Shown one piece after another: positions 12,320-29,561 of a stretch of 64,000 nucleotides of DNA; the first letter of the stretch is position 1; the number at the start of each line of letters is the position of its first letter. The DNA is taken from the NCBI RefSeq assembly GCF_019160155.1, contig NZ_JAFNIH010000041.1, positions 414,871 to 478,870 of the forward strand. The letters are read 5' to 3'. The DNA comes from Pinisolibacter aquiterrae. Lineage in GTDB: Bacteria; Pseudomonadota; Alphaproteobacteria; Rhizobiales; Ancalomicrobiaceae. A model generated the notes under the pieces. The model was given only the letters and a program-made list of their open reading frames with translations, was not told the origin of the DNA and did no database searches. Position numbers and translations under genes: made by a program.

Positions 12320-13129
12320 TCAGTGCGACAGGAGCAGCGGCAGGGTCGCGTGCTGCAACAGGTAGCGCGTTCCGGCGCCCGCGCCGGAGAAGGACGAGCC
12401 GATGTGATCGAAGGCGCCGACCACCAGGAGGTCGGCGGCATGATCGGCGGCCTCGTTGAGGAGCGTGTCCATCAGCCGGACCTCCTCGACCATCACCGTC
12501 CGCGACCGCCCGGCGATGCCGTGGGCGGCGAGACGCTCGAGCACCAGCGGCTCGAAGCCGGAGGTCTCCTCGCGCGGGCGCGCGACGTGCACCACCGAGG
12601 CCTCGGCGTCGGAAGCGATCAGGGGCAGCGCGTCGGAGAGCGCCCGTGCCGCGCTCGGCGCCGGATGCCAGGCGAAGAGCGGACGCCGTCCGACCTCGCG
12701 CGGCGCCCCGACCGGCGGCACCAGCAACACCGGCCGGCCGCTCTCGCGCAGGATTCGCTCGCAGAGATCGGCCGGCACGCGACCGCCCTTCTCCGGCCCG
12801 CCCAGCACGACGAGATCGAAATGCCGGGCGAGATCGGTCGCCCGCGCCAGGATCTCGTGCTCGCTCCCGCGATCGAGATCGACGAAACGGGCGGCATCGC
12901 CGAGGGGCGCGGCGCGCCGGGCGAAGTCGGTCGCCGCCGCCTCGACCGCGTCGAGATGCTCGCGGCTCGGCCAAGTGGCGACGACGCCGACGCGATGGGC
13001 CGGCGCGGTCTCGGCGAAGACGCCGGTGAGACGGGCGCCGAACCGGGTGGCGAGGGCGACCGCGAGATCGATGCGGTTCGCACGACGCGGGCCGGAGTCG
13101 AGATGGACGAGGAGGGTTGCGAACGACAT
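12320..13129 (-). CDS. Tandem universal stress protein (UspA family)
   Basis: Cytoplasmic stress protein of 269 residues with two Usp domains in tandem. The first (about 1-140) begins SFATLLVHLDSG and contains LVVLGGPEKGGR. The second (about 145-269) ends with LLVVGAFDHIGSS and GAGTRYLLQHATLPLLLSH, a degenerate form of the G-x2-G-x9-G-S/T nucleotide-binding signature. It is the last gene of the long minus-strand operon, 22 nt after tcuB, with GGAAGGA before the ATG. A hairpin at 12240-12278 follows. The role in this catabolic operon is unknown. Confidence 0.85.
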   Translation of the reverse strand: MSFATLLVHLDSGPRRANRIDLAVALATRFGARLTGVFAETAPAHRVGVVATWPSREHLDAVEAAATDFARRAAPLGDAARFVDLDRGSEHEILARATDLARHFDLVVLGGPEKGGRVPADLCERILRESGRPVLLVPPVGAPREVGRRPLFAWHPAPSAARALSDALPLIASDAEASVVHVARPREETSGFEPLVLERLAAHGIAGRSRTVMVEEVRLMDTLLNEAADHAADLLVVGAFDHIGSSFSGAGAGTRYLLQHATLPLLLSH

Positions 13130-13151
13130 GGGCTGATCCTTCCGTGGAGCT

Positions 13152-14363
13152 TCAATCGCCGCCGAGGTCGAGCCGGTTCGGCAGACGCTTTTCGATCGTG
13201 TGTTTGAGAAGCGCGGCGGCCCGGAAGAACCCGTGCGCGAACTTGCCGTAGGGCATCGTCAGGAACAGCGCCGTCACCGCGCCGAGGTGAAGCGCGAGCC
13301 ACACCGGCATCGCCCGTGTCTCGCGCAGGACGAGCAGCGCCAGCCCGGTCAGGCTCACCGCCAGGAGCAGCGCGATGAAGCCGCGATCCATCGGCCGTTG
13401 CGCGGGATCGCCCTGCGCCGGATCGCGCCGCAGGTTGAGCCACAGGAGCCCCGCTGGCCCGATGACGAGACCGATTCCCCCGAGCGTGCCGAGGATCACC
13501 GGCAGGCTGGTCCAGGCATAGGGCGCCTCGAGACCGAGGAGGTAGTGATAGAGCGTGGCGACCGACGTCGACGCCAGACACAGAAGGAAGCCGTAGGCGG
13601 TCAGGTGGTGGAAATAGCGCCGCGCCGGGGTGAAGCGGTCGTCCTCCTCGTTGCAGCCCTCGCCGTGGCCGCCGCCGAGATGGCGCAGCGTCGCGACGTC
13701 GGTGACGGCCTCCACGACGGCGGGTCCGCGCGCGCGGGCGATCGCCGAGCGATCGTCGGCTTCCGCCCCGACGCTCGGCGAGACCCGCCGCCAGAACCGG
13801 CCGACGCCCATCGCCAGCGCGAACACCGCGGCGAGGAAGACCACGCCGAAGAAGCTCGCGAGAAAATCGTGTGGGAAGACCGCGTAGAAGTTCCCGTCGC
13901 CGCCTTCGTGGGTGAAGCCGCCGCCGATCGCCAGGACGAGCAGCAGGAAGAGCGCGAGCCCACCCGCCAAGGCCAGCGCGACGGTGAGGCCGGCGCGCGC
14001 GTAGAGCCGGCCGAAGGCGGGCGGCCAGGCATAGTCGCGATAGGTCGCGACCCGCACCTCGGCCATGGCGCGCGGCACGTTGACGCCGAAATCGTGCGGC
14101 GGCGCATATTGGCACGCGTGCAGACAGGCGCCGCAGTTGTGGCAGAGATTGGCGAGGTGATGGATCTCCGCCTTGTCGAAGGCGAGATGGCGGGTCATCG
14201 CCGGAAAGACGGCGCAATAGCCCTCGCAGTAGCGGCAGGCGTTGCAGATCTGCAGGACGCGGGCGACCTCGCTCTCGCTCGCCGTCAGGAACGGGGCGGC
14301 GGCGGCCTCGGCGATCGGATCAGTGGGCGACGGCAAGGGCGAGCTCCTCTTCGAATTCCGCAT
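13152..14363 (-). CDS. tcuB: Tricarballylate-utilisation iron-sulfur membrane protein TcuB
   Basis: Membrane electron carrier of 403 residues that reoxidises the FAD of TcuA and passes electrons to the quinone pool. Two 4Fe-4S ligand clusters lie near the N-terminus: [11 protein letters not shown] (about 42-52) and [11 protein letters not shown] (about 74-84). Several hydrophobic helices follow from about residue 120 to the end, in line with the CitB/TcuB family. The start at 14363 overlaps the 3' end of tcuA by 44 nt; no better start lies between it and the first cysteine motif. The citrate/tricarballylate MFS carrier TcuC is not adjacent, and the Liv-type importer of the same operon may replace it. 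Confidence 0.9.
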
Positions 14364-15765
14364 GACGACGCCCGACCGCCCGCGCCGCCGAGGCCCCGGC
14401 GATGCGCCCGAAGGCGGTACCGATGCTCATGCCGATGCCGGCGGTGTAGCCCTGGCCGAGCACGTTGCCGGCCATCATCTCGCCGGCGACGAACAGGTTG
14501 TCGCTCGGCCGATCGGCGAAGCGCACGGCGGCGGTCTCGTCGGTCTTCAGGCCGAGATAGGTGAAGGTGATGCCGGGCCGGAGCGGGTAGGCGAAGAAGG
14601 GCGGCTGATCGATCGGCAGCGCCCAATGGGTCTTGGCCGGCGCGAGCCCCTCGGTGCGGCAGTCGTCGAGCGTGGTGTGGTCGAAGGTGCCGGGCCGGCA
14701 GGCGGCGTTGTAGGCGCCGATCGTCGCGGTGAAGGCGCTAGCGTCGAGGCCGAGCGCGACGGCGAGCCCCTCGAGCGTGTCGGCACGGGTGCCCGGAAAG
14801 ACCGGCGGCATGAAGCGGCCGACCGCCTTGCGGTCGATGATCGACCACGCGATCTGGCCGGGCTGGCCGGCGACCAGCCGCCCCCAGATGGCATAGCGCT
14901 TCGGCCAGAAGTCCTCGCCCTCGTCGTAGAAGCGCGCACCCTCGCGATTGACCACGACGCCCAGCGAGACGCAGTCGATGCGGGTGCAGATGCCGCCGTC
15001 GTAGAGGGGCGCGCGCGCGTCGATCGCGACACAATGGGCTTGGGTCGGATCGCCGACGGCGTCGACGCCGGCGTCGATCATGAACTTCAGCAGCGTTCCC
15101 TGATTGAAGCGGGTGCCGCGGATCAGGAAGTTCTCCGCCGGCCATTCGCCGCGCGCGTTGCGGCCCCAGGCCTCGCGCTGCCATTCGAGATTGGATTCGA
15201 ACCCGCCGCAGGCGAGGACGCAGGTCTTCGCCGCGATCCGCTCGCCCGAGGCGGTGATCGCCGCCCGGAACCGGCCGCCGTCGAGTTCCAGCCGCTCCAC
15301 CGGCGTCTCGTAGCGGATCTCGACGCCGAGCGCGGCGGCGCTGCGGTAATAGGCGTTCACCAGCGCCTTGCCGCCGCCCATGATGAAGGCGTTGGTGCGG
15401 GCGACGTGGAGCGCCCCGGAGAGCGGCGGTTGGAACCGGACGCCGTGCGCACGCATCCAGGTGCGGCAGCGCGAGGAATGGCGGATGACGAGGCGCGCCA
15501 GCGCCTCGTCGGTACGGCCGGCGGTGACCTTCTCCAGGTCGCGCCAATATTCCTCCTCGCCATAGGCTTCGATCAGAACGTCTTGAGGTGCATCGTGCAT
15601 GCATCTCAAATTGCGCACGTGCATCGAATTGCCGCCGCGCCAGGCGCGCGGCGCCGCCTCGAGCAGCAGCACCGATGCGCCGGCCTCGCGCGCCGTCAGC
15701 GCGGCGCAGAGCGCGGCGTTGCCGCCGCCGATGACCAGAACGTCGGGTTCTCCGGTCGAAGTCAT
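14320..15765 (-). CDS. tcuA: Tricarballylate dehydrogenase TcuA (FAD)
   Basis: Flavoprotein of 481 residues in the fumarate-reductase/succinate-dehydrogenase family. TcuA converts tricarballylate to cis-aconitate. The FAD-binding opening [21 protein letters not shown] is at residues 9-29, followed by [17 protein letters not shown], a TcuA-like segment. The C-terminal FAD contact reads [26 protein letters not shown]. The ATG at 15765 is chosen because it directly precedes the FAD motif and has GAGGGAT upstream. tcuB follows with overlap, as expected for the pair. The enzyme could act on another polycarboxylate, since the operon also holds many enzymes foreign to known tcu loci. Confidence 0.85.
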
Positions 15766-15826: not shown

Positions 15827-17533
15827 TCACGCCGCGCCCGCCGCCGCGCCGCGTCCGGCGAACCAGCCGAACACCAGCGCCGGTCCGAGCGTGATCCCGG
15901 GGCCGGGATAGGAGCCCTCCATGATCGAGGCCATGTCGTTGCCGCAGGCGAAGAGGCCGGGGATCGGCGCGCCGTCGGTTGACAGCACCCGGGCGCTCTC
16001 GTCGGTCGCGAGCCCCGAGGACATGCCGAGATCGGCCGGCCGCACCGCGACCGCGTAGAAGGGCGGCGTGGCGATCGGCGCCACGCAGGGGTTGGGGCGG
16101 TGGTCGGCGTCGCCGAGCGAGCGCTGATAGGCGTCGCCGCCGCGCCCGAAGGCGGGATCCTCGCCGTGGGCGGCATGATGGCCGAAGGTGGCGATCGTCT
16201 CGGCGAGTGCCGGACCGGGCACGCCGAGCTCGCGCGCCAGGGCCTCGACGCTGTCCGCGCGCTTCAGATAGCCGCTCGCGACCTCCGCCTCGAGCCGCCG
16301 GGTGAAGGGGCGGATCTTGCCGAGCCCGTAGGTCCACAGGAAGGCCGCGTCGCAGATCAGCCACGCCGGCACCGCCCGATCGGCCCGGGCGAGCTGGGCG
16401 CGGACGAAGGCGTGGTAGGAGACCGCCTCGTTGACGAAGCGCCGGCCGTCGGCGTCGATCGCGATCAGGCCCGGCTTGGCGCGGTCGGTGACCGTGTGCG
16501 GGAAGACCCCGGCGCTGCCGTCGGCGCGCGTGAAGGTCGAGGCCGGCACCCAGAAGGCCCCCGCCTCGGTCGGCGCCGACAGGGCCGCGCCGACCTCGGT
16601 CGCCAGACGCGCCCCGCGCGGCGCCGTGCCCGGCGCGACGGTCGCGGTCAGGTCGCCGGCGGCGGCGGGCACGTAGCGGCGGCGGAGGTCGCGGTCGTGC
16701 GAGATCCCGCCGGTCGCGAGGACGACCCCGCCGCGCGCGCCGATCACCCGCGTCCCCGTGGCCGACCGCGTCTCGACCCGGTCGACCCGCCCGTTCGCGT
16801 CGCGGCCGAGCCCGGCGACGGTGACCCCGGTGCGGATCGTCACGCCGAGATCGAGCGCCGACTTCAGGAGCCGCGCCACCAGCGCGTTGCCGAGATGGAG
16901 CGTGGTGCCGCGTCGCGCCGACAGACGCTCGTGGGCGTGGCGCAGCAGGAGCCGCGCGGTGTGGAACGCCGAGCGCAGCGAGCGCTTGGCGCGGCGCAGA
17001 TGGGGAATGTCCTGCCGACAGATCATCATGCCGCCGAACAGGGTGAATTCGGGCAGGGGATCGCGCACCAGGGCGAAATTCGCGCCGAGGACGCGCGCGT
17101 CGAAGGCGACCGGCTCCAGCACCCGGCCGCCGAGCGTCGCGCCGGGGAGATCGGGCTGGTAGTCGGGATAGGTGAGCACCGGCTTCAGACGCAGCGAGGT
17201 CCGCGCCTCGAGCCAGCGCAGCGCCTCGTCGGCGTGAGCGAGGAAGGTCTCGAGCCGGCGGCGATCGGTGCCGGGAACGGTCGCGGCGAGATAGGTCCGC
17301 GCCGCCTCGATCGTGTCGGGCCGGCCCGCTTCCGCCGTCTTGTGGTTGGCGGGCAGCCAGACCATGCCGCCGGAGATCGCGGTGGTGCCCCCGACGACCT
17401 CGCCCTGTTCGAGGAGCAGCACGGAACGGCCCTCGGCGGCGGCGGCGCAGGCGGCGGTGAGCCCACCCGCGCCGGCCCCGACGACGACGACGTCCCAGAT
17501 CTCCTCGGCCGCTGCCGGCGCCGTCGCGTTCAT
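15827..17533 (-). CDS. FAD-binding dehydrogenase (3-ketosteroid/fumarate-reductase-like)
   Basis: Flavoprotein of 568 residues, related to 3-ketosteroid dehydrogenases and flavocytochrome-type fumarate reductases. The N-terminal VVVVGAGAGGLTAACAAAAEG (about 14-34) and VGGTTAISGGMVWLPANH bind FAD. The C-terminal ACGNDMASIMEGSYPGPGITLGPA is the classic 3-ketosteroid dehydrogenase-like loop. It probably introduces a C=C bond next to a carbonyl or carboxyl. The ATG overlaps the stop of the preceding SDR gene by four bases. With TcuA it makes two related dehydrogenases in a row, separated by only 61 nt. Substrate unknown. Confidence 0.82.
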   Translation of the reverse strand: MNATAPAAAEEIWDVVVVGAGAGGLTAACAAAAEGRSVLLLEQGEVVGGTTAISGGMVWLPANHKTAEAGRPDTIEAARTYLAATVPGTDRRRLETFLAHADEALRWLEARTSLRLKPVLTYPDYQPDLPGATLGGRVLEPVAFDARVLGANFALVRDPLPEFTLFGGMMICRQDIPHLRRAKRSLRSAFHTARLLLRHAHERLSARRGTTLHLGNALVARLLKSALDLGVTIRTGVTVAGLGRDANGRVDRVETRSATGTRVIGARGGVVLATGGISHDRDLRRRYVPAAAGDLTATVAPGTAPRGARLATEVGAALSAPTEAGAFWVPASTFTRADGSAGVFPHTVTDRAKPGLIAIDADGRRFVNEAVSYHAFVRAQLARADRAVPAWLICDAAFLWTYGLGKIRPFTRRLEAEVASGYLKRADSVEALARELGVPGPALAETIATFGHHAAHGEDPAFGRGGDAYQRSLGDADHRPNPCVAPIATPPFYAVAVRPADLGMSSGLATDESARVLSTDGAPIPGLFACGNDMASIMEGSYPGPGITLGPALVFGWFAGRGAAAGAA

Positions 17534-18240
17534 GCCAGCCCGCCGTTCGGTTGCACGATCTGACCGTCGATCCAGGAGGCGGCGTCGGAGGCGAGGAAGC
17601 GGACCACCTCGGCGATCTCCTCCGGCCGTCCGATCCGCCCGAGCGGGCTCATCGCGGCGCTGCGCTGCTTGGCCTCCTCGGTCTTGCCGGCGTTGAAGAG
17701 GTCGGTCTCGACCGGCCCCGGCGCGACCGCGTTGACGCGGACGCCACGGCCGGCGAGCTCCTTCGACATCGACCGCACGAGGCACTCGACCGCGCCCTTG
17801 GTCGCGGCATAGGGGCCGGTGCCGGGCACGGCATGGCGCACCAGCGAGGTCGTCACCGCGACGATCGCGCCGCCGTCGCGGACCCGCCGCGCGGCCTCGG
17901 CGAGAACGTTGAAGGCGCCGAACACGTTGACCTCCATCAGGAGGCGGAAATCCTCCGGATCGAAGGCGCCGACCGGCTTCGCCGGCACGTTGATGCCGGC
18001 GTTGGCGATCACCGCCTGCGGCGCCGTGCCGAAATCGGCCTCGGCCTTCGCGAAGACGCCCGCCACGGCGGCGGCGTCGCGGATGTCGACCTGATAGGCG
18101 CGGGCCTCGGCCCTGGGGCTCGGCGTTCCCGTGGTGGTGAAGCCGACCTGCCAGCCGGCGGCGGCGAAGGCGTCGACGCAGGCCGCGCCGATGCCGCGCG
18201 AGCCGCCGAAGACGAGGACGAGAGGGGAGGGGGGCGTCAT
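17530..18240 (-). CDS. Short-chain dehydrogenase/reductase (classical)
   Basis: NAD(P)-dependent SDR of 236 residues. The cofactor motif GGSRGIGAACV is at residues 12-22, NAGIN near 80-84, the catalytic Ser in TTSLVRH, and the Tyr-x3-Lys reads PYAATKGAVE. The C-terminus EVVRFLASDAASWIDGQIVQPNGG is standard for the family. Unlike the two other SDRs of this window its active site is complete. It lies between an epimerase gene and the FAD dehydrogenase, with a four-base overlap to the latter. It probably oxidises a hydroxyl of the pathway intermediate. Confidence 0.87.
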   Translation of the reverse strand: MTPPSPLVLVFGGSRGIGAACVDAFAAAGWQVGFTTTGTPSPRAEARAYQVDIRDAAAVAGVFAKAEADFGTAPQAVIANAGINVPAKPVGAFDPEDFRLLMEVNVFGAFNVLAEAARRVRDGGAIVAVTTSLVRHAVPGTGPYAATKGAVECLVRSMSKELAGRGVRVNAVAPGPVETDLFNAGKTEEAKQRSAAMSPLGRIGRPEEIAEVVRFLASDAASWIDGQIVQPNGGLA

Positions 18241-18339: not shown

Positions 18340-19293
18340 TCACGACGGACCGGCGCGGGTCGCCGCGATCGTCGCCTCGATGCCGGCCTGCAGGTCGTAA
18401 CGGGGGCGATAGCCGAGTTCGGTCTCGGCGCGGCGGATGTCGAGCGCGCCCTTGACGGCGCTGAGGATCGCCCCGCCGAGACGGTGCGGACCCTCGGTGC
18501 CGACGGTGATCCGCGCGCCGGGGATGGCGCGAACGACCGCCTCGGCGGTGTCGCGCAGCGTCGGGGCGACGCCGGTCGCGACGTTGTAGGTGTCGAAACG
18601 GTGCTCGGCCTTGTCGAGCGCCAGCAGCACGCCGGCGACGGTGTCGGCGATGTAGACCTGATCGACCGCGAAATCGCCGCCGGTCGGCTCATGCAGTGCC
18701 GCCCCGGCGAGCGCCGCCTCGATGAAGGTGCGCGGCATGCGCAGGCGCGGCAGATGGGGTCCGTAGACCCAGCAGGTGCGCACGTTGATGCATTCGAGCC
18801 CGTGGTTGCGGGAATAGACCCGCCCGTAGTGCTCGGCCGCGAGCTTGGTCAGGCCGTAGACGCTGAGCGGCTTCTGCGGGTGATCCTCGTCGATGACCGG
18901 AGCGAGGAAGTCGCCGTAGGTCTCCTCCGTGGAGACGTGGATCACGCGCTTCACGCCGGTCGACCGCATCGCCTCGAAGAGGTTGATCGACCCCTCGACG
19001 TTGACCCGCAGCGCCGCCAGCGGAACGTCCGCCGCCTGCACCACGCCGACGATCGCGGCGGCATGGATCACCGCGTCGGGCGCATGGGTCTCGAAGAGCC
19101 GCAGCACGCGCGGCCATTCGCCGAGATCGGCGATTTCGGGGATCAGTCGCGGCTCGCCCGCCGCCCGCGCGGCCACGGCCGGCGGCACGACGAGATCGAC
19201 CGCCACGACCGTGTCGCCGCGCGCCAGCAGCGCCTCGACGATGGCGCGGCCGAGCCAGCCGCAGGCGCCGGTGACCAGGATCTTCTTGGGCAT
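18340..19293 (-). CDS. NAD-dependent epimerase/dehydratase (extended SDR)
   Basis: Extended SDR of 317 residues. The motif TGACGWLGRAIVEALLARGD binds NAD at the N-terminus (about 8-27). The catalytic segment reads STEETYGDF followed by PLSVYGLTKLAAEHY, so Tyr-x3-Lys is intact. This is the nucleotide-sugar epimerase fold but many members act on simple polyols or sugar lactones. It lies three genes away from a second extended SDR and next to a cupin, which suggests sequential oxidation or epimerisation of a carbohydrate-like compound. The ATG at 19293 directly precedes the NAD motif. Confidence 0.85.
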   Translation of the reverse strand: MPKKILVTGACGWLGRAIVEALLARGDTVVAVDLVVPPAVAARAAGEPRLIPEIADLGEWPRVLRLFETHAPDAVIHAAAIVGVVQAADVPLAALRVNVEGSINLFEAMRSTGVKRVIHVSTEETYGDFLAPVIDEDHPQKPLSVYGLTKLAAEHYGRVYSRNHGLECINVRTCWVYGPHLPRLRMPRTFIEAALAGAALHEPTGGDFAVDQVYIADTVAGVLLALDKAEHRFDTYNVATGVAPTLRDTAEAVVRAIPGARITVGTEGPHRLGGAILSAVKGALDIRRAETELGYRPRYDLQAGIEATIAATRAGPS

Positions 19294-19301: not shown

Positions 19302-19724
19302 TCACCGGGGTTGCGGTTCTTCGTCGGTCGGCGGGCTGGTGATCACCAGGAACACCAGCGGATCGTTGCCGGTGCAGTGGAACTCGTGCGCCACGCCGGG
19401 CGGGATGAAGGTGACGTCGTCGGCGCGCACCAGCCGGCGCTCGCCGTCGACGATCAGGAGGCCCTGGCCGGAGAGCACGTGATAGATCTGCTCCTGGACC
19501 GCGTGCACGTGCGCCTCGACATGGGCGCCCGGCTCGTAGGAGGAGATGCGGTGGTCGAAGAAGCGGCTGCCGACGGTCGCCGGCGTCACGATCGCCTTCG
19601 ACAGGGCCTGATTGAAATGGCCCGGATACTGGATCCACATCAGCTCGCCGAGATTGCGGGTCGCGGCGTATTTCTTCTCCGCCGCGTCGGCGAAGGCGTC
19701 GATCGGAGGGGATATGAGGGTCAT
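19302..19724 (-). CDS. Cupin-domain protein
   Basis: Small single-domain cupin of 140 residues. Metal-binding cupin motif 1 is seen as PGAHVEAHVHAVQEQIYHVLSG (about 71-92) and motif 2 as FIPPGVAHEFHCTGND (about 108-123), together giving His, His, Glu and His ligands. Such proteins are isomerases, dioxygenases or lyases of small organic acids and sugars. AGGAG precedes the ATG. It sits between two extended SDR genes with 2-nt and 8-nt gaps, firmly inside the operon. The reaction is not predictable. Confidence 0.85.
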   Translation of the reverse strand: MTLISPPIDAFADAAEKKYAATRNLGELMWIQYPGHFNQALSKAIVTPATVGSRFFDHRISSYEPGAHVEAHVHAVQEQIYHVLSGQGLLIVDGERRLVRADDVTFIPPGVAHEFHCTGNDPLVFLVITSPPTDEEPQPR

Positions 19725-19726
19725 CG

Positions 19727-20650
19727 TCAGTCTCCTGAGGGAAAGCCGGGCAGACCTGCGAGCAGGTGCCGTTGATCGTATTCGGCGACGAAACCAAGGC
19801 GCGTCGCGGCCGGGGTGAGGTCGTAGAGGGGGGCGAACGGGTTCTCCGCCCAGATCTCCGGCGCGCGGATCTCGACCGCGTCGCCATGCAGACGCCGCAG
19901 CCGGTCGAGCGTCGGTTCGGGCGAGAGCGTCACCCGGGCCGAGAGGTAGAAGCGCTCGAAGTCGCCCGGCGCCATGTCGAGTTCGAGGGCGAGGCGGAAG
20001 GCGCGGGCGAGATCGCGCGGATCGATGTGGTGGTGGAGCGGGCCGCCGCCGGCGACCGAGGGGCCGCCGACCATCGGACCGCGATAGCCCTCGGGGTCCT
20101 TCGCCCGGGCGACGATCTCGCCGGCCATCTCCGGATAGGCGACGAAGACCGTCCGGAGCGCCACCACCGACTGACCGCGCAGCGCCCAGGCCTGCGCCAG
20201 ATCCTCGCCCATCACCTTGGAGACCGCATAGGGGTCGGTCGCCATCAGCGGGTGGTCGAGATCGACCGGCGCGTAGCGCGGCGGCAGCATCCGCCCCTCG
20301 CGCACGGTGTAGCCGGCGACGGAATCGCTCGAGCAGAACACCATCCGCCCGACGCCCGCCGCCTCCGCCGCCTCGAACACGATGTGGGTGCCGAGCAGGT
20401 TGACGCGCATGATCGCACGTCCGTCGCCGGACCAGATGTTCGGCACGGCGGCGATGTGGAACACCGCGTCGACGCCGGCGACGGCGGTCGCGACGAGATC
20501 GGGGTCGGTGACGTCGCCGACGTACCAGTCGATCGCCTCCTCGGCGGAGCGCCGGTCGAGGCCGCGCACGGCATGGCCGTGGGCGAGGAGATCGCGGACG
20601 ACGTGACGCCCGAGGAGGCCGGCGGCGCCGGTGACGAGGATCGTGCTCAT
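19727..20650 (-). CDS. NAD-dependent epimerase/dehydratase (extended SDR)
   Basis: Extended SDR of 307 residues with TGAAGLLGRHVVRDLLAHGH at the N-terminus and a catalytic segment CSSDSVAGY followed by DPYAVSKVMGEDLA, so Tyr and Lys are kept. The HIAAVPN loop is typical of the family. It overlaps the preceding TIM-barrel isomerase gene by four bases (ATGA). A substrate such as an aldonate, polyol or cyclic sugar acid is likely given the isomerase and cupin neighbours. It is about 30% shorter than UDP-sugar 4,6-dehydratases. Confidence 0.85.
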   Translation of the reverse strand: MSTILVTGAAGLLGRHVVRDLLAHGHAVRGLDRRSAEEAIDWYVGDVTDPDLVATAVAGVDAVFHIAAVPNIWSGDGRAIMRVNLLGTHIVFEAAEAAGVGRMVFCSSDSVAGYTVREGRMLPPRYAPVDLDHPLMATDPYAVSKVMGEDLAQAWALRGQSVVALRTVFVAYPEMAGEIVARAKDPEGYRGPMVGGPSVAGGGPLHHHIDPRDLARAFRLALELDMAPGDFERFYLSARVTLSPEPTLDRLRRLHGDAVEIRAPEIWAENPFAPLYDLTPAATRLGFVAEYDQRHLLAGLPGFPSGD

Positions 20651-21482: not shown

Positions 21483-24053
21483 TCAGGCGCTCCTCGTGCG
21501 GGCCGGCTCGTCGGCGGCATGGACGATGCCGAGAAGACGTTCCTGCAGGGCCTGATCGGCGGCGAGTTCGCAGGCGCCGCCGCCGTAGGCGACGCGGCCG
21601 TTGACCAGCACATAGGCGCGGTCGGCCATGGCCAGCACGCTCTCGGCGTGATGCTCGACGATCACCAGACTGGCGCGCGTGGTGAGCTTGGCGACCGCCG
21701 TCCGCACCTCCTGCACGACGGCCGGGGCGAGACCCTCGAAGGGTTCGTCGAGCAGGATCAGCCGGCTCGGCACCACCAACGCGCGGGCGATCGCCACCAT
21801 CTGCCGCTCGCCGCCCGAGAGATGCTCGCCGAGCGAACGCAGGCGCTGGGAGACGCGCGGGAAGAGATCGTAGATCTCCTCGAGCGTCGCCCCGCCGGGA
21901 CGCGACGCGAGCTTCAGGTTCTCCATCACCGTGAGGTTCGGGAAGAGCCGCCGTCCTTCCGGCACCAGCGAGATGCCGAGCCGGTTGATCGCGTCGGGAC
22001 GCAGGCGGGTGATGTCGACGCCGTCGAAGGTGATCCGCCCGGTCGCCGCCGGCAGCACGCCGGTGATGGTGCGCAGCGCCGTCGTCTTGCCGACGCCGTT
22101 GCGCCCGAGGAGCGCGACCACTTCGCCGGAGTGGACGACGAGGTCGAGCCCGTCCAGCACCGTACCGCCGCCGTAGCCGGCGCCGACACCGGAGATCTCG
22201 AGCAACGGTGCGCCGACCGGCCGCTCGCGCGGCGTGGCGAGACGAATGCGTTCGGCCGGCGCGACCGGCGCCGCGCCGTGGGCGGTGCCGAGATAGGCCG
22301 AGACGACCTCCGGGTTGCGGGCGACCTCGGCGGGTTTGCCGTCGGCGATCAGCCGTCCCTGATGCAGCACGGTGATGCGGTCCGACATGGCGAGCACCCG
22401 GTCGATGTCGTGTTCGATCAGGAACACCGAATGGGTCCGCGCCAGCCGCGAGATGAGGTCGCCGACGATCTTGCGATCGCTCTCGGCGAGACCCGCCAGC
22501 GGCTCGTCGAGCAACAGGAGCTTCGCCCGCGTCGCCAGCGACACCGCGATCTCGAGCAGACGCTTCTCGCCGTGGGAGAGCGCCGAGCAGATCTCGCCGG
22601 CGCGATCGGCGAGGCCGACGGCGTCGAGCAGCGACCACACCCGCAGGTTCGCCGCCTCGTCGGCATGGGCGTCGTGCCACAGGCCGAACCACCGGCGATC
22701 CGCCGCCTGAACCGCGATGCGGGCGTTCTCGAAGGCGGTGAGATTGGGGAAGACGCTGAGGATCTGGAACGAGCGGGCCATGCCGAGACGGGCGCGGCGG
22801 TGGGGCGGGAGATCGACGATCGAGCGTCCCTCGAACTCGATCGTGCCGGCATCCGGGCGCAGCACGCCCGTCAGCAGATTGAAGAAGGTCGTCTTGCCGG
22901 CGCCGTTCGGGCCGATCAGGCTGTGCAGCCCGGTCCGTCCGACCTCGAGCGAAATGTCGCTCTGGGTGACGATCGAACCGAAGCTCTTGGAGAGATTGCG
23001 GATCGAGAGGATCGGCCGGCTCGGATCGCCGGCCTCGTCCTGCGCCGCCGTCACGTGGGCCGGGATCGCGGCGGGACGCGCGGGAATGCCCCAGCGGGTC
23101 AGGGTCCGCCGGTCGCGGCCGATCAGGCGCTGGAAGAGGCCTTGGACGCCTTCGTGGGAGAGCAGCGCGAAGGCGATGATGATCGGCGCGAAGAACAGCC
23201 ACCAGTTCTCGGTCACCGCGCTCAGCCGGTCCTCGAGCACGATGAAGATCATCGCGCCCCAGAGCGGGCCGAGGAAATGATGGACGCCGCCGAGCGCGGC
23301 CATCAAGACGGGGTCGCCGGCATGTTCCCAATTGAGATTGTTGGCATAGACGCCCTGGAGGAGCAGGCTCATCAGCCCGCCCGCCACGCCGATCGCGCCA
23401 CCGGCGATCATCACCGCGACCAGCTTGGTGCGATAGGTGTCGTAACCGAGGCTCGCCACGCGCTGTTCGTTGTCGCGCAGCGCCTGCATGACCCGCCCGA
23501 GCGGCGCATGAGCGACCCGCCACAGACCCCACAGAACCGCGAAGACGACGACCAGCGTGAAGACGTGGAACGCCGCCGCCGACGGAAACAGCGGCCGCTC
23601 GACGTTCTGCAGACCGTTCTCGCCGCCGGTCACCGCCGTCCATTTGAAGGCGATCTCGAAGGCGATCTGCGAGCAGGCGAGCGTCAGCAGCGAGAAATAG
23701 AGGCCACGTCGGCGCAGGATCACCGCGCCGACGACGAGCGCCAGGAACACCGAGAAGACGGTGGCGATCACCACCGAGACGATCTCGTTGCCGCCGGAGA
23801 CCATGCCGCCGAGGATCGCGACCGCATAGCTGGCGCAGCCGAAGAAGAAGGACGCGCCGAAGGGCACGAGGCCGAGATAGCCGATCAGGAAGTTCACCCC
23901 GGCGCCGTAGAGCGCGTAGATCGCGATCTGCGTGACCCGTTGGATCGGCATGCCGATGGCGAGCGCCACGCTCGAGGCGGCGACGAGCACCACCGTGGCG
24001 ACCACGATCGGGTGGGACCACAGGCGTTTGATCTTCGTAGAGAGGGTCGTCAT
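21483..24053 (-). CDS. Branched-chain-type ABC transporter, LivM-LivG-LivF triple fusion
   Basis: A single 856-residue chain with three complete modules. The LivM permease (about 1-330) has membrane helices and the GGAIGVAGGLMSL and ALGGVHHFLGPLWGA segments. A LivG-type ATPase (about 348-590) has Walker A GPNGAGKT 381-388, signature LSHGEKR 492-498 and Walker B LLLLDE 512-517. A LivF-type ATPase (about 616-846) has Walker A GRNGVGKT 650-657, signature LSGGERQ 745-751 and Walker B LILLDE 765-770. No stop or frameshift interrupts it. ATG 24053 overlaps the LivH stop. LivM-LivG fusions are known; adding LivF is less usual. All catalytic motifs are intact. Confidence 0.93.
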   Translation of the reverse strand: MTTLSTKIKRLWSHPIVVATVVLVAASSVALAIGMPIQRVTQIAIYALYGAGVNFLIGYLGLVPFGASFFFGCASYAVAILGGMVSGGNEIVSVVIATVFSVFLALVVGAVILRRRGLYFSLLTLACSQIAFEIAFKWTAVTGGENGLQNVERPLFPSAAAFHVFTLVVVFAVLWGLWRVAHAPLGRVMQALRDNEQRVASLGYDTYRTKLVAVMIAGGAIGVAGGLMSLLLQGVYANNLNWEHAGDPVLMAALGGVHHFLGPLWGAMIFIVLEDRLSAVTENWWLFFAPIIIAFALLSHEGVQGLFQRLIGRDRRTLTRWGIPARPAAIPAHVTAAQDEAGDPSRPILSIRNLSKSFGSIVTQSDISLEVGRTGLHSLIGPNGAGKTTFFNLLTGVLRPDAGTIEFEGRSIVDLPPHRRARLGMARSFQILSVFPNLTAFENARIAVQAADRRWFGLWHDAHADEAANLRVWSLLDAVGLADRAGEICSALSHGEKRLLEIAVSLATRAKLLLLDEPLAGLAESDRKIVGDLISRLARTHSVFLIEHDIDRVLAMSDRITVLHQGRLIADGKPAEVARNPEVVSAYLGTAHGAAPVAPAERIRLATPRERPVGAPLLEISGVGAGYGGGTVLDGLDLVVHSGEVVALLGRNGVGKTTALRTITGVLPAATGRITFDGVDITRLRPDAINRLGISLVPEGRRLFPNLTVMENLKLASRPGGATLEEIYDLFPRVSQRLRSLGEHLSGGERQMVAIARALVVPSRLILLDEPFEGLAPAVVQEVRTAVAKLTTRASLVIVEHHAESVLAMADRAYVLVNGRVAYGGGACELAADQALQERLLGIVHAADEPARTRSA

Positions 24054-24919
24054 TCGAAACGCTCCCAGCGCTCGCCGAACAGGCCGCGCGGACGCAGCAA
24101 CATGATTGCGAACATCAGCACGTACATGGAGGCGGCGGCCGCCTCGGGTTTGAACTGGATGGTCAACGAGATCACCACGCCGACCGCGAGACCGGCGACG
24201 ACCGCGCCGCGGAACGAGCCGAGACCGCCGATCGCCACCACCACGAAGGCGGGCATCACGGCGTTGGCCGACATCGACGGCGACACCGCCCACAAGGGCG
24301 CCGCCAGCACGCCCGCCGTCGCCGCCAGCGCGCAACCGAGACCGAAGGCGGCGGTCAGCACGCGCGGCAGGTTGATGCCGAGCAACTCGACCATCTCCGG
24401 ATCGCGGCTGCCCGCCCGCAGGATGCGGCCGTAGGGCGTCCAGGCGAGGAAGGCCCACAGACCCAGGAGCGTCGCGATCGTCGCCCCGAGCACGGCCACC
24501 CGGTACTTGGTGATGAGCAGCGGTCCGAATTCGACGATGCCGGAGAAGATCGCCGGCGCGTTGAACGGTTTGCCGTCGGCGCCCCAGGTGAAACGGATGA
24601 TCGCCTCGATCAGCAGCGCCAGCGCGAAGGTGACGATCAGGCTGAGCAGCGGCTCCTTGCCGTAGAGGCGGCGGACGATCGTCGCCTCCACCGCCATCCC
24701 CACCAGTCCGACCAGCGGCGGCGCGAAGATCACCGCCGCCCAGCCGAACCAGTGGAACAACTGCCAGGCGAAATAGGCGCCGAGGGCGAAGAATGCCCCG
24801 TGCGCGAAGTTGATGACGCCGAGCAGGCCGAAGGTGATCGACAAGCCGACGGCGATCAGGACATAGACGAACCCCAGGACGAGTCCGTTCGCGATTTGCG
24901 ATACGATCATGTCGATCAT
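24050..24919 (-). CDS. livH: Branched-chain-type ABC transporter permease LivH
   Basis: Inner-membrane permease of 289 residues, partner of the LivM module in the following fused gene. Hydrophobic segments throughout; GLVLGFVYVLIAVGLSITFGLLGVINFAHG is the standard LivH start and GGLGSFRGAVVAGLAVG the conserved EAA-equivalent region. ATG 24919 is chosen over the one at 24910 because GGTGGAA lies upstream at a good distance; a longer frame from 24988 runs through the intergenic region. Four bases overlap the fusion gene. Confidence 0.92.
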   Translation of the reverse strand: MIDMIVSQIANGLVLGFVYVLIAVGLSITFGLLGVINFAHGAFFALGAYFAWQLFHWFGWAAVIFAPPLVGLVGMAVEATIVRRLYGKEPLLSLIVTFALALLIEAIIRFTWGADGKPFNAPAIFSGIVEFGPLLITKYRVAVLGATIATLLGLWAFLAWTPYGRILRAGSRDPEMVELLGINLPRVLTAAFGLGCALAATAGVLAAPLWAVSPSMSANAVMPAFVVVAIGGLGSFRGAVVAGLAVGVVISLTIQFKPEAAAASMYVLMFAIMLLRPRGLFGERWERFE

Positions 24920-25016: not shown

Positions 25017-26255
25017 TCAGAGCGCCGGCATCGAGCAGCCGATCTCGTCCTTGGTGCCGAACGCCTTCTCGGTGTCGGCGGCGGTGTCGGAGGTGTTCTT
25101 CAGGAAGTCGAAGAAGTCCCACTTGTCGGTGATGGTCCTCTTGACCTGAACGATCACCGCCGGGCGGACCATCTGATGGTCCCAGGAGCGGAAGTAGAAC
25201 GGGAAGCTGCCTTCCGTGTTCTTCCAGGTCTCGAGCGCCGTCACGATGTCCGCCGACTTGGTCGACTTGGCCGCCTCGATCGATTCCAGCAGCGCCCGCA
25301 TGCCGATCCAGCCCGACCACGCCTTGTCCGACGGCGGCGCGCCGTATTTGGCGACGAAGTCCGCGGTCATCTTCTTTTCGGCGGGGGTGTTGTTCGGGTT
25401 GTTGTAGTACCAGGGCTTGATGAAGATGCCGGTCGAGGCCTGCGGGCCGACGTCCCAGAAGTCGGTGTCGGTCACCGCGACGGCGGCATAGGGGATCTTG
25501 CCCTTCATGCCCATCTCGTTCCACTGCTTCAGGAAGTTCGAGAAGTCGCCGCCGACGAGACCGCCGATCACCGCGTCGGGCTTGGCCTGCCGGATCTTGA
25601 GGATGTAGGAGGAATAGTCGGCGGTGTTGACCGGCACCTCGTCGACGCCGGCCTCGGTGCCGCCGATCGCCGGCAGCATCCCGCGCGCCGAGCGTAGGAT
25701 GTCCTGGCCGAAGGCGTAGGACGGGGTGATGAAGTAGATCTTCTTGCCGAGTTCGGCGACGTAGGGCATCAGGCCGGCGATCTGCACCGGCACCGTCGCC
25801 TGGGTGCGGAACGTGTAGCGGCTGCACTCCTTGCCGGTGATCTCGCGGGCCGCCGCGCCGGTCAGGATCAGCGGGATCTTCTCGCGATTGGCGACGCTCA
25901 TCATGGCGAGCGCCGAGGAGGAGTAGTTGCCGCCGACCACCGCGACGACCTTGTTCTCGTCGATCAGGCGCTGCATGTTCTGCTGCGAGACCTGGGGATT
26001 GGGTTCGTCGAGCCACACCAGTTCGATCGGCCGACCGAGCACCTTGCCGCCGGCCTGTTCGACCGCGAGGGCGCTGCCGCGCTGGAGAAACTCGCCGATC
26101 GCCGCGCCGGGGCCCTGCTTGGAATAGATCAGGCCGATGCGGATCGGGCCGGTCTCCTCGGCCGCCACGGCGGAGGCCCAACCGATCGTCGCCATCGTGG
26201 CGGCGCCGGTCACGAGGCGCAGGAAGGAACGTTTGTCACGCTGGATTCCGATCAT
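25017..26255 (-). CDS. Branched-chain-type ABC transporter, periplasmic binding protein
   Basis: Peripla_BP_6 (Leu/Ile/Val-type) binding protein of 412 residues. The mature part starts near residue 33 with PIRIGLIYSKQGPGAAIGEFLQRG. The export signal has RDKRSFLRL before the hydrophobic core, which resembles a Tat signal with one arginine replaced by lysine; Sec export is also possible. The adenosine/serine-rich pocket VVGGNYSSSALAMMSVA and YAFGQDILRS match the family. It precedes livH in the operon. In such clusters ligands range from amino acids to aromatic and carboxylic acids; here a polycarboxylate or sugar acid would fit the operon, by inference. Confidence 0.9.
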   Translation of the reverse strand: MIGIQRDKRSFLRLVTGAATMATIGWASAVAAEETGPIRIGLIYSKQGPGAAIGEFLQRGSALAVEQAGGKVLGRPIELVWLDEPNPQVSQQNMQRLIDENKVVAVVGGNYSSSALAMMSVANREKIPLILTGAAAREITGKECSRYTFRTQATVPVQIAGLMPYVAELGKKIYFITPSYAFGQDILRSARGMLPAIGGTEAGVDEVPVNTADYSSYILKIRQAKPDAVIGGLVGGDFSNFLKQWNEMGMKGKIPYAAVAVTDTDFWDVGPQASTGIFIKPWYYNNPNNTPAEKKMTADFVAKYGAPPSDKAWSGWIGMRALLESIEAAKSTKSADIVTALETWKNTEGSFPFYFRSWDHQMVRPAVIVQVKRTITDKWDFFDFLKNTSDTAADTEKAFGTKDEIGCSMPAL

Positions 26256-26289: not shown

Positions 26290-28080
26290 TCAGTCGATGC
26301 GATGCGGCTTGCCGAAGGTCGGCTCGTTGAAGGGGATCGGCGGCAGCGACCAGGTTCCGGTCGATGGCGGGCGCACGTCGGCGTCGACGTGCAGATCGAT
26401 CACGCAGGGACGGCGGTTGCGCAGCGCGGCCTCGACCGCGCCGGCGAGGTCCTCGCTGCGGGTGACGGTGACGCCGTCGGCGCCGCAGGCCCGCGCCCAG
26501 GCGGCGAAGTCGGGGTTGTAGCGTTCGCCGCCCGGACCCTGATTGCCCTTGTAGAAGGCGGTGCCGATCTCACGGCCCTCGAAGAGCCCGTATTGGAGAT
26601 CGCGGATCGCGCCCCAGGCGAAGTTGTTCCAGACGATCCAGATGCAGGGCAGGTCGTATTCGACCGCGGTCGCGACGACATGAGGAGCCATCATGAAGCC
26701 GCCGTCGCCGACGACCGCCACGCAGGGGCGATTCGGGGCGGCGAGCTGCGCGCCGAGAACGCCGCAGACGCCGAAGCCCATCGACGAATAGCCCCAGCTG
26801 TTGAGCATGCTCTGCGCCCGCTTCGGCTTCCAGAACTGCATGAACCAGTTGTGGTGGACGCCGGAATCGAGCGACAGGATCACGTCGTCGGGCAGCACCT
26901 CCTGGAGCACGCCGACCACCCATTCCGGCCGGATCGGCGTGGTGATCGCCGAGAAGTTCGGGCGAATGTAGGCCTCCCACTCCGCCCGCCAGCCGGCGAC
27001 CTCCGCCCGCCATTCGGCGAAGCGCTCGGCGGTGACGTCGGCGCGCTTCGAGAGCGCCTCGGCGAGTTGGCCGGCGAAGGTCTTGGCGTCGGCGACGATG
27101 CCGAGCGTCGGGGGATAGTTGCGGCCGAGCTCGGCCGGGTCGATGTCGACCTGGAGCAGCGCGGTCGCGGGGAAGTTCCACGAATAGCCGGGATGCCAGC
27201 TCGACGACGAACGGTCGTCGAAACGGGTGCCGATACAGATCACCAGATCGGCGAAACGGCCGGCCTGATTGGCGGGATAGGCGCCGTTGCGGCCGATGAA
27301 GCCGAGCGTCAGCGGGTCGTCGGCGGGAACCAGCCCCATGCCGTTCGGCGAGGTGATGACCGGAATGCCCCAGCGGCTCTGGAGCGCGGTGATCTCGGGG
27401 CCCGCCTCCGACAGGGTGGTGCCGTGGCCGACGAAGAAGACCGGCCGCTTCGCCTTGGCGATCAGGGCGACCGCGGCGGCGAGATCGTCGGCGTTGGCAC
27501 TCGGTCGATGGGTGCCGTGACGGTGCGAAGGGGCGGGCGTCGAGACCTCGGCCTCTTCCTGGAAGACGTTGTAGGGGATGTCGAGATTGACCGGCCCCGG
27601 CCGCCCGGTCACCATCGTGTCGAAGGCCTGACGCAGGGCGAGCGGCAACATCTCGACCCGGCTCGGCTGGAACGACCGCTTGACCACCGGCCGCAGCACC
27701 TGGGCGAAATCGGCCTGATTGTGGGCGTAGAGTTCCTGGAACGGCCCACGATTGGCCTGGGAGGTCGGCACGTTGGCGGTGATCGCCAGGAAGGCCGAGG
27801 AATCCGACAGCGCGGTGACGAGCGGCATCACGATGTTGGCCGAGCCGGGCCCGGTCGAGGTGAGCGTCGCGACCGGGCTGTGCTTCACGCGGAAATAGGC
27901 GTCCGCCATGTGGCCGGCGCATTGTTCGTGGCGCGGCGAGATCAGCCGCACGCGGTCGCGGACGGCATGGAGCGCATCGAGGATGCCCACGTTGCCGTGC
28001 CCGCACACGCCGAAGACGAACGGCACCTTCTGTTCGACCAGGTACTCGGCGATGACCTCGCCACCCTTCATTCTGCTCAT
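26290..28080 (-). CDS. Thiamine-diphosphate-dependent enzyme (acetolactate-synthase family)
   Basis: Three-domain ThDP enzyme of 596 residues. The PYR domain carries the catalytic Glu in SPRHEQCAGHMADAY (about residue 51), the central domain lies near 200-330, and the PP domain has the ThDP/Mg motif GDGGFMMAPH ending in WNN. It acts as a decarboxylase, carboligase or hydrolase on an alpha-keto acid. The ATG at 28080 has GGAG upstream; a longer frame from 28110 would overlap the preceding stop. The gene follows an aldehyde dehydrogenase, so decarboxylation to an aldehyde followed by oxidation is a reasonable model. No regulatory subunit is present, which argues against acetolactate synthase in amino-acid synthesis. 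Confidence 0.85.
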   Translation of the reverse strand: MSRMKGGEVIAEYLVEQKVPFVFGVCGHGNVGILDALHAVRDRVRLISPRHEQCAGHMADAYFRVKHSPVATLTSTGPGSANIVMPLVTALSDSSAFLAITANVPTSQANRGPFQELYAHNQADFAQVLRPVVKRSFQPSRVEMLPLALRQAFDTMVTGRPGPVNLDIPYNVFQEEAEVSTPAPSHRHGTHRPSANADDLAAAVALIAKAKRPVFFVGHGTTLSEAGPEITALQSRWGIPVITSPNGMGLVPADDPLTLGFIGRNGAYPANQAGRFADLVICIGTRFDDRSSSSWHPGYSWNFPATALLQVDIDPAELGRNYPPTLGIVADAKTFAGQLAEALSKRADVTAERFAEWRAEVAGWRAEWEAYIRPNFSAITTPIRPEWVVGVLQEVLPDDVILSLDSGVHHNWFMQFWKPKRAQSMLNSWGYSSMGFGVCGVLGAQLAAPNRPCVAVVGDGGFMMAPHVVATAVEYDLPCIWIVWNNFAWGAIRDLQYGLFEGREIGTAFYKGNQGPGGERYNPDFAAWARACGADGVTVTRSEDLAGAVEAALRNRRPCVIDLHVDADVRPPSTGTWSLPPIPFNEPTFGKPHRID

Positions 28081-28106
28081 GACGTCCGTCTCCAACTCAT
28101 CCCGCC

Positions 28107-29561
28107 TCACGCGATGATGGTGATCATGCGTTCCTCACTCATTTCGCGAACGGCGTAGCGCGGACCCTCGCGGCCGAAGCCGCTGTCCTTGGAGCCACCG
28201 TAGGGCATGAGATCGACGCGCGAACTCGGGGTGTCGTTGATGTGCACGCCGCCGACCTCGAGCCGGCGGGCCGCGCGGAAGGCGGCGTCGAGGCGCATGG
28301 TGAAGAGCCCGGTCGCGAGCCCGTAGGGGGTCGCGTTGACCCGGTCGATCGCCTCCTCGAGCCGGTCGAAGGGCGCGATGCACAGAACCGGGCCGAACAC
28401 CTCGCGGCAGCCGAGCGGCGTGCCCGGCGCCACGTCGGCGAGCAGGGTCGGAGCGACGACCGAGCCGTCGCGGCCTCCCCCGGCCAGCAGGCGCGCGCCC
28501 GCGCGGACCGCCTCGTCGATCCAGCTCTCGATCCGTCGTGCCGCCTCTTCGCTGATCACCGGGCCAACCACCGTCTCCTCGGCCCCCGGATCTCCGTGAG
28601 GCAGTGCCGCGACCAACGTCGCGAGACGCCGCTCGACATCTTCGACCAGAGAACGATGCACGAGAAGCACCTGGATGGAGGTGCAGACCTGTCCTGCCTT
28701 GCGATAGCTGGCGTTGACGACCTTCGGCAGGGCGACGTCGAGGTCGGCGTCGTCGGCGAGGATGCAATGGGCGATCGAGCCCAGTTCCATCTGGGTGCGG
28801 CGCAGCCCGGCGGCATTCTGAATGAGACGGCCGACCTCGGTGCTCCCCGTGAAGGCGAAGAAGCGCACGCTCGGCTCGTCGAGCAGCCAGCGCGCCACCT
28901 CGCCGTCACCGTGCAGCACCGAGATCATCGCCGGCGGCAGGCCCGCCTCGAGCAGGCATTCGGCCATGACGCAGGCGCTCATCGGCGTGTGCAGCGACGG
29001 CTTGACGATCACCGCGTTGCCGGCGGCGAGCGCCGGCCCGACCTTGTGCGCCACCGTGTTGAGCGGCGCGTTGAAGGGCGTGATCGCGCAGATCGTGCCG
29101 AGCGGCACCCGGAGCGTGAAGCCGAGCCGGCCGTTCTGCCCGGCCGCCCCCTCGAGCGGCACGAGTTCTCCGGCGAAGCGGCGCGCCTCCTCGGCGGAGA
29201 GGCGGAAGGTCACGACGCAGCGCTGGATCTCGCCGGCGGCGTCGCGGCGGGTGAAGCCCGCCTCCCGGGTCAGAAGCTCCACGAGTTCGCCGGTGCGCGC
29301 CTCGAGGAGATCGGCGGTCCGGTCGAGGATGACGCCGCGCTCGTAGGGGCCGAGCCGGTCGTCCCGGAAGGCGGCATCGCTCGCCGCGACCGCTTGCGCC
29401 ACCTGTTCGCGCGAGGGCAGATGCGTCCGCATGAAGGGGTGGAGGCGGTACTTGTCGGGAACCTCGACGGTGCTCGCCCCGTCGGTCCACACGCCGCCGA
29501 TCAGGAGTCGGCAGACGAGACCTTCCTCGAGCGGCGAGCTCTGCGCGACCATCTGCGCCAT
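28107..29561 (-). CDS. NAD(P)-dependent aldehyde dehydrogenase
   Basis: Aldehyde dehydrogenase of 484 residues, first gene of the 17-kb minus-strand operon. The catalytic cysteine is Cys293 (KAGQVCTSIQ), the general base Glu259 (QMELGS), the cofactor loop FTGSTEVG is near 238-245 and the TPFNAPLN segment holds the oxyanion Asn. The C-terminal PYGGSKDSGFGREG is typical. GGGAGG sits 8 nt before ATG 29561. It probably oxidises the aldehyde made by the following ThDP enzyme. The upstream 130-nt region is shared with a divergent LysR gene. Confidence 0.92.
   Translation of the reverse strand: MAQMVAQSSPLEEGLVCRLLIGGVWTDGASTVEVPDKYRLHPFMRTHLPSREQVAQAVAASDAAFRDDRLGPYERGVILDRTADLLEARTGELVELLTREAGFTRRDAAGEIQRCVVTFRLSAEEARRFAGELVPLEGAAGQNGRLGFTLRVPLGTICAITPFNAPLNTVAHKVGPALAAGNAVIVKPSLHTPMSACVMAECLLEAGLPPAMISVLHGDGEVARWLLDEPSVRFFAFTGSTEVGRLIQNAAGLRRTQMELGSIAHCILADDADLDVALPKVVNASYRKAGQVCTSIQVLLVHRSLVEDVERRLATLVAALPHGDPGAEETVVGPVISEEAARRIESWIDEAVRAGARLLAGGGRDGSVVAPTLLADVAPGTPLGCREVFGPVLCIAPFDRLEEAIDRVNATPYGLATGLFTMRLDAAFRAARRLEVGGVHINDTPSSRVDLMPYGGSKDSGFGREGPRYAVREMSEERMITIIA

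Follow-up and report, generated by a model that had tools for sequence, protein, structure and literature searches.

Why should the genes for a tricarballylate dehydrogenase, which is viewed as a stand-alone utilisation system, lie near the end of a long operon that also encodes many other enzymes and a Liv-type importer? This arrangement was found in Pinisolibacter aquiterrae, at positions 12320-29561 on the minus strand of a 64-kb stretch (64,000 nucleotides of contig NZ_JAFNIH010000041.1, positions 414871-478870, hereafter the window) that is part of the 4.9-Mb genome. We propose, with a probability that we place slightly below 0.6, that the operon specifies a single, complete pathway for the catabolism of an oxygenated carboxylic acid, probably an alicyclic one, and that this pathway ends in aconitate through the TcuA and TcuB proteins.

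Operon anatomy, importer and regulator

The listing of open reading frames (ORFs), the GC content by codon position and matches to Pfam and NCBIfam families gave 14 genes (Table 1). In transcription order, they encode an aldehyde dehydrogenase (ALDH), a thiamine diphosphate (ThDP)-dependent enzyme, a Liv-type substrate-binding protein (SBP), LivH, a single LivM-LivG-LivF ORF (LivMGF), a xylose-isomerase-like TIM barrel (TIM), an extended short-chain dehydrogenase/reductase (SDRa), a cupin, a second extended and a classical SDR (SDRb and SDRc), a flavoprotein (FAD2), TcuA, TcuB and a universal stress protein-like product (Usp). The 13 intergenic gaps were, in order, 26, 34, 97, -4, 2, -4, 2, 8, 99, -4, 61, -44 and 22 nt, thus ranging from -44 to +99 nt, with 11 of them no longer than 61 nt and the other two of 97-99 nt. 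Start codons were assigned by judgement: that of TcuA was set at ATG 15765 instead of 15762 (the FAD2-TcuA gap would otherwise be 64 nt) and that of the ThDP gene at an inner ATG of an ORF which extends to 28110. The single co-directional 14-gene operon proposed in a preliminary description of the window was borne out; the genes which that description had listed are present, but it had left out SDRc and the terminal Usp gene. No sigma-70-like promoter appeared in a scan of positions 11400-30900, which says little for a GC-rich genome, and the three terminator-like matches of the same scan on the minus strand all fell within the SBP and LivMGF genes.

By their sequences, TcuA and TcuB belong to the tricarballylate dehydrogenase family, each exceeding the cut-off of a second model besides those in Table 1 (TIGR02485, 672 against 372.55, for TcuA; TIGR02484, 418 against 246.6, for TcuB). 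In this respect, and in having an adjoining LysR regulator, the operon resembles the tcuRABC locus for tricarballylate utilisation of Salmonella, from which it differs by about ten more genes, which encode enzymes and a Liv importer. The preliminary description stated that known tcu loci comprise tcuRABC alone; in the loci compared here, tcuAB recurs next to a larger unit. It also differs in that no tcuC-like gene of the major facilitator superfamily (MFS) was seen among the 14 genes by Pfam and NCBIfam family matches, as expected if tricarballylate were made inside the cell. The last gene, Usp, is probably a lineage-specific addition to the operon end; among the 11 fetched tcuB stretches (L156-L164, L167 and L168; L numbers denote loci and G numbers genomes), a Usp match was found in one, that of a Siculibacillus genome (L159).

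The dedicated Liv importer that had been described within the operon was confirmed by family matches of SBP, LivH and LivMGF. LivM, LivG and LivF are fused, and a single coding sequence of similar length is annotated in the Methylobacterium, Neorhizobium and Rhizobium relatives. The ATPase domains exceeded the cut-offs of UrtD and UrtE (333.6/304.1 and 305.9/285.8) and of LptB (291.9/240). Urea transport was nevertheless rejected, as the SBP scored 93.9 against the UrtA cut-off of 492.75 and LivH 186.1 against the UrtB cut-off of 250.3.

The LysR-type regulator scored 217 bits with the NAC model, under its cut-off of 309, and its orthologue is divergent from ALDH in relatives too. The pattern ATA-N9-TAT, which we take to be a NAC-type site, was conserved in 13 of the 16 LysR-ALDH intergenic regions, the window counted (L030, L031 and L032 were without it), against a mean of 0.53 and a maximum of 3 regions in 500 letter shuffles, which preserve letter composition and not relatedness, several of the 16 regions being from close relatives. 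The entire window contains two occurrences of this pattern.

Table 1. Coordinates of the operon genes, in transcription order, and of the regulator and putative operator, with the matches that identify them
Feature	Position in window	Strand	Evidence
Aldehyde dehydrogenase (ALDH)	28107..29561	-	PF00171, 447.6 bits
ThDP-dependent enzyme, putatively C-C cleaving, GHGN motif	26290..28080	-	three TPP domains
Liv/HAAT-type periplasmic binding protein (SBP)	25017..26255	-	PF13458, 268.4 bits
LivH-type permease	24050..24919	-	PF02653
LivM-LivG-LivF, one ORF, 856 aa	21483..24053	-	PF02653 and two PF00005 stretches, single frame
Xylose-isomerase-like TIM barrel (epimerase, isomerase or dehydratase)	20647..21480	-	PF01261
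SDRa, extended SDR, epimerase family	19727..20650	-	PF01370
Small cupin	19302..19724	-	PF07883
SDRb, extended SDR, epimerase family	18340..19293	-	PF01370
SDRc, classical SDR dehydrogenase	17530..18240	-	PF13561
FAD2, 3-ketosteroid-dehydrogenase-like flavoprotein	15827..17533	-	PF00890
TcuA, FAD-dependent tricarballylate dehydrogenase family	14320..15765	-	NF006130, 749 bits (cut-off 369)
TcuB, 4Fe-4S membrane electron carrier for TcuA	13152..14363	-	NF011607, 629 bits (cut-off 524)
Universal stress protein-like (Usp), last gene	12320..13129	-	PF00582
LysR-type regulator, NAC-like, divergent from ALDH	29692..30627	+	PF03466/PF00126
Putative LysR operator ATA-N9-TAT, divergent promoter region	29651..29665		pattern kept in orthologous regions

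Recurrence of the gene set and its link to TcuA

A scan of one genome per species, covering 84,980 species, gave 267 relatives of the ThDP enzyme, and the loci of the best 80 were used for gene counts. A match required at least 45% query coverage (at least half in the later neighbour-gene comparison), and some of the matches to the importer, the regulator and the SDRs may be to paralogues. ALDH was found in 65 of these loci, the cupin in 61, SDRc in 55, FAD2 or a second flavoprotein family in 55, LivMGF in 42, a Liv or TctC importer in 67 and TcuA or TcuB in 13. Many of the 80 loci are cut by contig ends; when those shorter than 20 kb were left out, the corresponding counts among 52 loci were 47, 46, 37, 42, 34, 48 and 12. 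At least eight of the ten genes from ALDH to SDRc were kept in 17 of the 80 loci, and they were collinear in 14 of the 17, indicating that the gene set is no chance assembly. Four of these 17 loci gave no match to TIM (L017, L022, L023 and L024) and four gave none to SDRa (L022, L023, L034 and L071), therefore those two steps seem not to be essential.

Plasmid pMNOD01 of Methylobacterium nodulans (MNOD_RS37685-37610) carries genes 1-13 of the 14 in identical order, together with the divergent LysR gene; it differs from the window in a GntR gene between FAD2 and tcuA, in the absence of a Usp match and in a TcuB only 48% identical. The ThDP enzyme was among the most conserved products (85% identity in M. 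nodulans, 73% in Neorhizobium and 65% in Rhizobium Q54), being surpassed by LivH in M. nodulans and by the cupin in Neorhizobium. A larger relative of the cluster was observed at 9547-24229 of L097 (pUSP3 of Aminobacter sp. MSH1, a conjugative-type plasmid), containing two different GHGN-type ThDP genes, a cupin, a TIM barrel and several SDR genes.

The low count of TcuA or TcuB in the 80 loci arose because the 10-kb flanks hid tcuAB in many of them. TcuA was searched in the whole genomes of 30 hand-picked loci, mostly of named isolates (29 genomes, L071 being omitted), and a match above cut-off was obtained in 29 of 29, although two of the best matches had an in-frame stop (G310 and G321) and one was a contig-end fragment (G308). 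In 14 of the 29 genomes, TcuA and the ThDP gene were on one contig and at most 17 kb apart. When 289 genomes of the class were drawn by the tool and the ThDP gene was called at E <= 1e-120, eight genomes (the window genome included) had the ThDP gene and 67 had TcuA, which was present in 8/8 genomes with the ThDP gene and in 59/281 without it (Fisher p 6e-6, or 3e-5 without the window genome); in four of the seven other class genomes (G087, G122, G131 and G229), TcuA was within 9 kb of the ThDP gene. A matched control of 120 genomes from the family around a Polaromonas genome (G326) had TcuA in 31 and the ThDP gene in four (G326, G333, G375 and G379), with TcuA in 4/4 against 27/116; the two genes were at most 6 kb apart in three of the four, and the ThDP frame of G375 contained one stop. 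This tight co-occurrence implied that the preliminary description was right to couple TcuAB to the other enzymes, and we regard the parts of the operon and this coupling as solid.

The layout of the two modules varied among the loci fetched because TcuA was close to the ThDP gene there (L156-L164). FAD2, TcuA and TcuB followed one another in the window's order in L156-L161; in L161, the FAD2 match was partial and an ORF on the opposite strand intervened. A separate LysR-TcuA-TcuB unit adjoined the core in the Paraburkholderia and Burkholderia loci (L162 and L163).

The ThDP enzyme, the proposed route and its rivals

Among the best 25 of 52 matched NCBIfam families, the ThDP enzyme reached no cut-off: it scored 367 against 538 bits with the acetolactate synthase large subunit (TIGR00118), 258.7 against 715 bits with IolD (TIGR04377) and 260 against 676 bits with sulfoacetaldehyde acetyltransferase. 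In its N-terminal domain, C26-G27-H28-G29 did not vary across 23 aligned ThDP proteins, and N30 was almost invariant. GHGN was present in 5/5 aligned IolD proteins (of the eight IolD loci, L108, L109 and L112 were outside the alignment); the acetolactate synthase paralogue L101 did not have it, nor did L102 and L104, of the same genome. Enzymes about 35% identical had GHG in Rhizobium (L099) and GHT in Azoarcus (L100), therefore the motif histidine is distributed more widely than the proven ring openers. The Azoarcus cyclohexane-1,2-dione hydrolase (PDB 2pgn) was matched by the profile of the ThDP enzyme along almost the entire length, with 210.8 bits. This is far from the best match of the profile, since higher scores were obtained with BbmA (327.6 bits, the best), with acetolactate synthases (about 299 bits) and with glyoxylate carboligase (about 240 bits). 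Variants of this hydrolase at His28 and Asn484 are named in a review (PMC12247030); H28 and N485/N486, which were invariant in the window's ThDP family, are candidate equivalents by residue number. The predicted structure of the ThDP enzyme was of middling confidence (mean predicted local distance difference test score, pLDDT, 74.9). Judged from its sequence, ring opening of a 1,2-dione is favoured over decarboxylation as the reaction of this enzyme, as a preference short of proof. The decarboxylation that had been proposed earlier is uncertain, the IolD-type motif being present and no cut-off being reached among the families listed.

The remaining enzymes were assigned in general terms. The TIM model (pLDDT 94.4) matched ketose 3-epimerases and xylose isomerases, the best being 3wqo (VIA-align Z 30.4, root-mean-square deviation 2.2 Å over 257 residues), and residues D180, H206 and E246 were invariant and E150 nearly so, presumably forming the usual metal site of the superfamily. 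The fold search was rejected as a call of function, because it gave just the general xylose-isomerase/ketose-epimerase fold and did not tell an epimerase from a dehydratase. The isomerisation previously attributed to this protein is possible but not essential, TIM not having been found in some operons that matched in other respects, such as those of Azospirillum sp. TSO35-2 and Bradyrhizobium. The best NCBIfam models for ALDH were lactaldehyde, phosphonoacetaldehyde and sulfoacetaldehyde dehydrogenases, and it was under every cut-off among the best 25 of 45 families. FAD2 scored 642.7 bits with PRK12843, under the cut-off of 758; steroid degradation was rejected, as the scores with PRK12844 (437.3 against 789) and PRK07843 (404.2 against 788) were also below the listed cut-offs.

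In the route that we propose, the Liv-type importer would take up a polyoxygenated carboxylate and the LysR protein would switch the operon on. The SDR and flavin dehydrogenases would act on hydroxyl and CH-CH positions, oxidising them to the point where a C-C bond beside a carbonyl could be attacked, the ThDP enzyme would cleave this bond to give an aldehyde, and ALDH would convert the aldehyde to tricarballylate or a close substituted succinate. TcuA and TcuB would then oxidise this product to (cis-)aconitate, passing the electrons to the quinone pool. Since aconitate would enter the citric acid cycle, no further lower pathway would be needed in the operon. We infer the order of the steps, the preference for ring opening and the identities of substrate and intermediates.

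Clues to the substrate came from genes near other loci, each clue being confined to a few of them (AroE-like genes in 2/80 and LigB in 2/80). In both L092 and L096, the ThDP cluster has a shikimate-dehydrogenase-like gene beside it, below cut-offs and with 48% and 47% identity, respectively, to its Azoarcus counterpart; in L092, no ATG or GTG was found upstream in this frame. Type II dehydroquinase-like genes were seen in L014 and L098; the L098 gene is under the cut-offs, and the L014 gene shares 89% identity with it. Near the Neorhizobium operon lay a gene resembling that of 4-carboxy-4-hydroxy-2-oxoadipate aldolase, above the NF006731 but below the TIGR02798 cut-off. The ThDP enzyme of Azoarcus KH32C grouped with the window family in a tree of 18 rows (support 85/90, long branch). 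These neighbours, together with the Azoarcus context, point to a quinate/shikimate-type acid, which is suggested but unproven as the substrate; the cyclic or multiply hydroxylated acid of the preliminary description remains plausible. A more specific version can be offered tentatively, as possible rather than expected: the operon would degrade a polyhydroxylated cyclohexanecarboxylic acid (e.g. dihydroshikimate) without aromatising it, oxidation of the ring and its opening by the ThDP enzyme, in the manner of IolD or cyclohexane-1,2-dione hydrolase, leading to tricarballylate and, via TcuAB, to aconitate. Periodate followed by oxidation is said to convert quinate to citrate and dihydroshikimate to tricarballylate, an account that was not found in the literature searched. 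Fumonisin breakdown, considered on account of its tricarballylate side chains, was rejected: there was no ThDP/tcu cluster among the literature matches listed and no esterase or aminotransferase match in the operon.

The Azoarcus locus itself (L100, 5940-13454 of plasmid pAZKH) has the ThDP gene with genes for a citryl-CoA lyase (above cut-off) and a CoA transferase, and is also flanked by annotated shikimate dehydrogenase and type I dehydroquinase genes. It is possibly a second undescribed cluster, whose sister pathway might lead from a 1-hydroxy acid to a citrate-type product and on to citryl-CoA lyase.

Several observations weigh against a single route ending in TcuAB, whose substrate, product and activities are all predictions. 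The co-occurrence samples were not controlled for genome size, and related genomes are not independent. In 15 of the 29 genomes, some of whose assemblies are fragmented, TcuA and the ThDP gene did not share a contig at a distance of up to 17 kb, and in the Neorhizobium locus L012 genes 1-10 are present but the approximately 11 kb read downstream of them showed no tcuAB, therefore tcuAB may be a neighbouring module. In three genomes of the class sample (G125, G187 and G229), the only TcuA-family matches reached about 520-600 bits, a lower type that perhaps acts on another substrate, and the TcuA-like proteins neighbouring the ThDP gene in L165 (G229) and L166 (G122) were only 35-36% identical to that of the window. 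In Azospirillum L156, an MFS gene that may or may not encode TcuC is located two ORFs past tcuB. Finally, CoA ligases, thiolases or CoA transferases replace parts of the set in some loci, so that the chemistry may vary. Acyl-CoA dehydrogenase, enoyl-CoA hydratase, ATP-grasp CoA ligase and thiolase-like genes were further found at other loci, and several substrates may therefore share the ThDP-ALDH-TcuAB end.

The ThDP enzyme could instead be a plain 2-oxoacid decarboxylase, by which a C7 tricarboxylic 2-oxoacid would be decarboxylated and then oxidised to aconitate or tricarballylate. One candidate would be 4-oxalomesaconate from the 4,5-cleavage of protocatechuate or gallate, or its reduced form; on paper, 4-oxalomesaconate minus CO2 plus oxidation equals aconitate. 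The enzyme does score higher on acetolactate-synthase-type models than on IolD, a LigB-family gene (4,5-DOPA-dioxygenase-like, under cut-off) is next to the L092 cluster and has clustered relatives in L096 and L072, and the Neorhizobium aldolase-like gene would fit as well. However, LigB was found in just 2/80 loci at the thresholds used, no ring-cleaving dioxygenase gene was seen in the window operon, the acetolactate synthase paralogue is without GHGN, and an unsaturated acid would leave TcuAB unneeded, all of which makes this alternative unlikely. It is rather improbable that tricarballylate itself is imported, with Liv replacing TcuC and the other enzymes being passengers or serving a second substrate, because the core without nearby tcuAB retains its own importer in many loci and TcuA occurs without the ThDP gene in the class and family samples (59/281 and 27/116), even though TcuA and TcuB are, among the families listed and transporter ATPases aside, the only enzymes above a curated NCBIfam cut-off, and LysR-tcuA-tcuB forms a separate unit beside the core in L162 and L163.

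The enzyme kinds of the operon, that is, dehydrogenases, a xylose-isomerase-like TIM barrel, a GHGN ThDP enzyme, a cupin and an ALDH, are those of the myo-inositol (iol) operon with IolD, IolE and IolB. Differences from iol are that the ThDP enzyme scores far under the IolD cut-off, that neither a kinase nor an aldolase gene was seen and that the operon ends in TcuAB. The shared enzyme kinds would be accounted for by a cyclitol or sugar-acid pathway that parallels the iol route and has TcuAB only indirectly at its end. Nevertheless, the IolD cut-off was not reached, TIM or SDRa was not found in several operons, and the link to TcuA would be left unexplained; we consider this pathway still less probable than import of tricarballylate. 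The poorest prospects are those of two unrelated modules that became neighbours by chance in some lineages: the 15 of 29 genomes unlinked within 17 kb are what it would predict, but co-occurrence in 29/29, 8/8 and 4/4 genomes against a background of about 21-23%, and linkage in alpha- and betaproteobacterial records with differing layouts, argue against it.

Neighbouring genes and significance of the operon

Directly beyond the LysR gene, at 30846-32036 of the window, lies a crotonase-family gene that exceeds the PRK08788 cut-off. It is also related to RpfF, the diffusible signal factor synthase, with 216 of 550 bits. The plus-strand genes at 7060-12214, convergent with the operon, gave matches to an ABC permease domain, to ABC ATPases and to an SDR, and include a dihydrodipicolinate-synthase-family gene (10515-11444); they may form a second catabolic operon. 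A further binding protein gene of the amino-acid type was located on the minus strand at 42297-43535, near an AMP-ligase gene on the same strand (45476-47317).

No description of the gene set was found among the matches listed in literature searches, which largely miss subscription journals, and it is apparently an undescribed, conserved catabolic operon. Tricarballylate dehydrogenase appears here as the last step of a wider pathway that recurs in Alpha- and Betaproteobacteria. If this is true, genes that are annotated generically, as acetolactate synthase, sugar epimerase, cupin or Liv transporter, would gain a common function; and should the substrate prove to be an alicyclic hydroxy acid, the operon would allow plant-derived acids of the quinate/shikimate type, or alicyclic matter rich in carboxyl groups, to be degraded without aromatisation.

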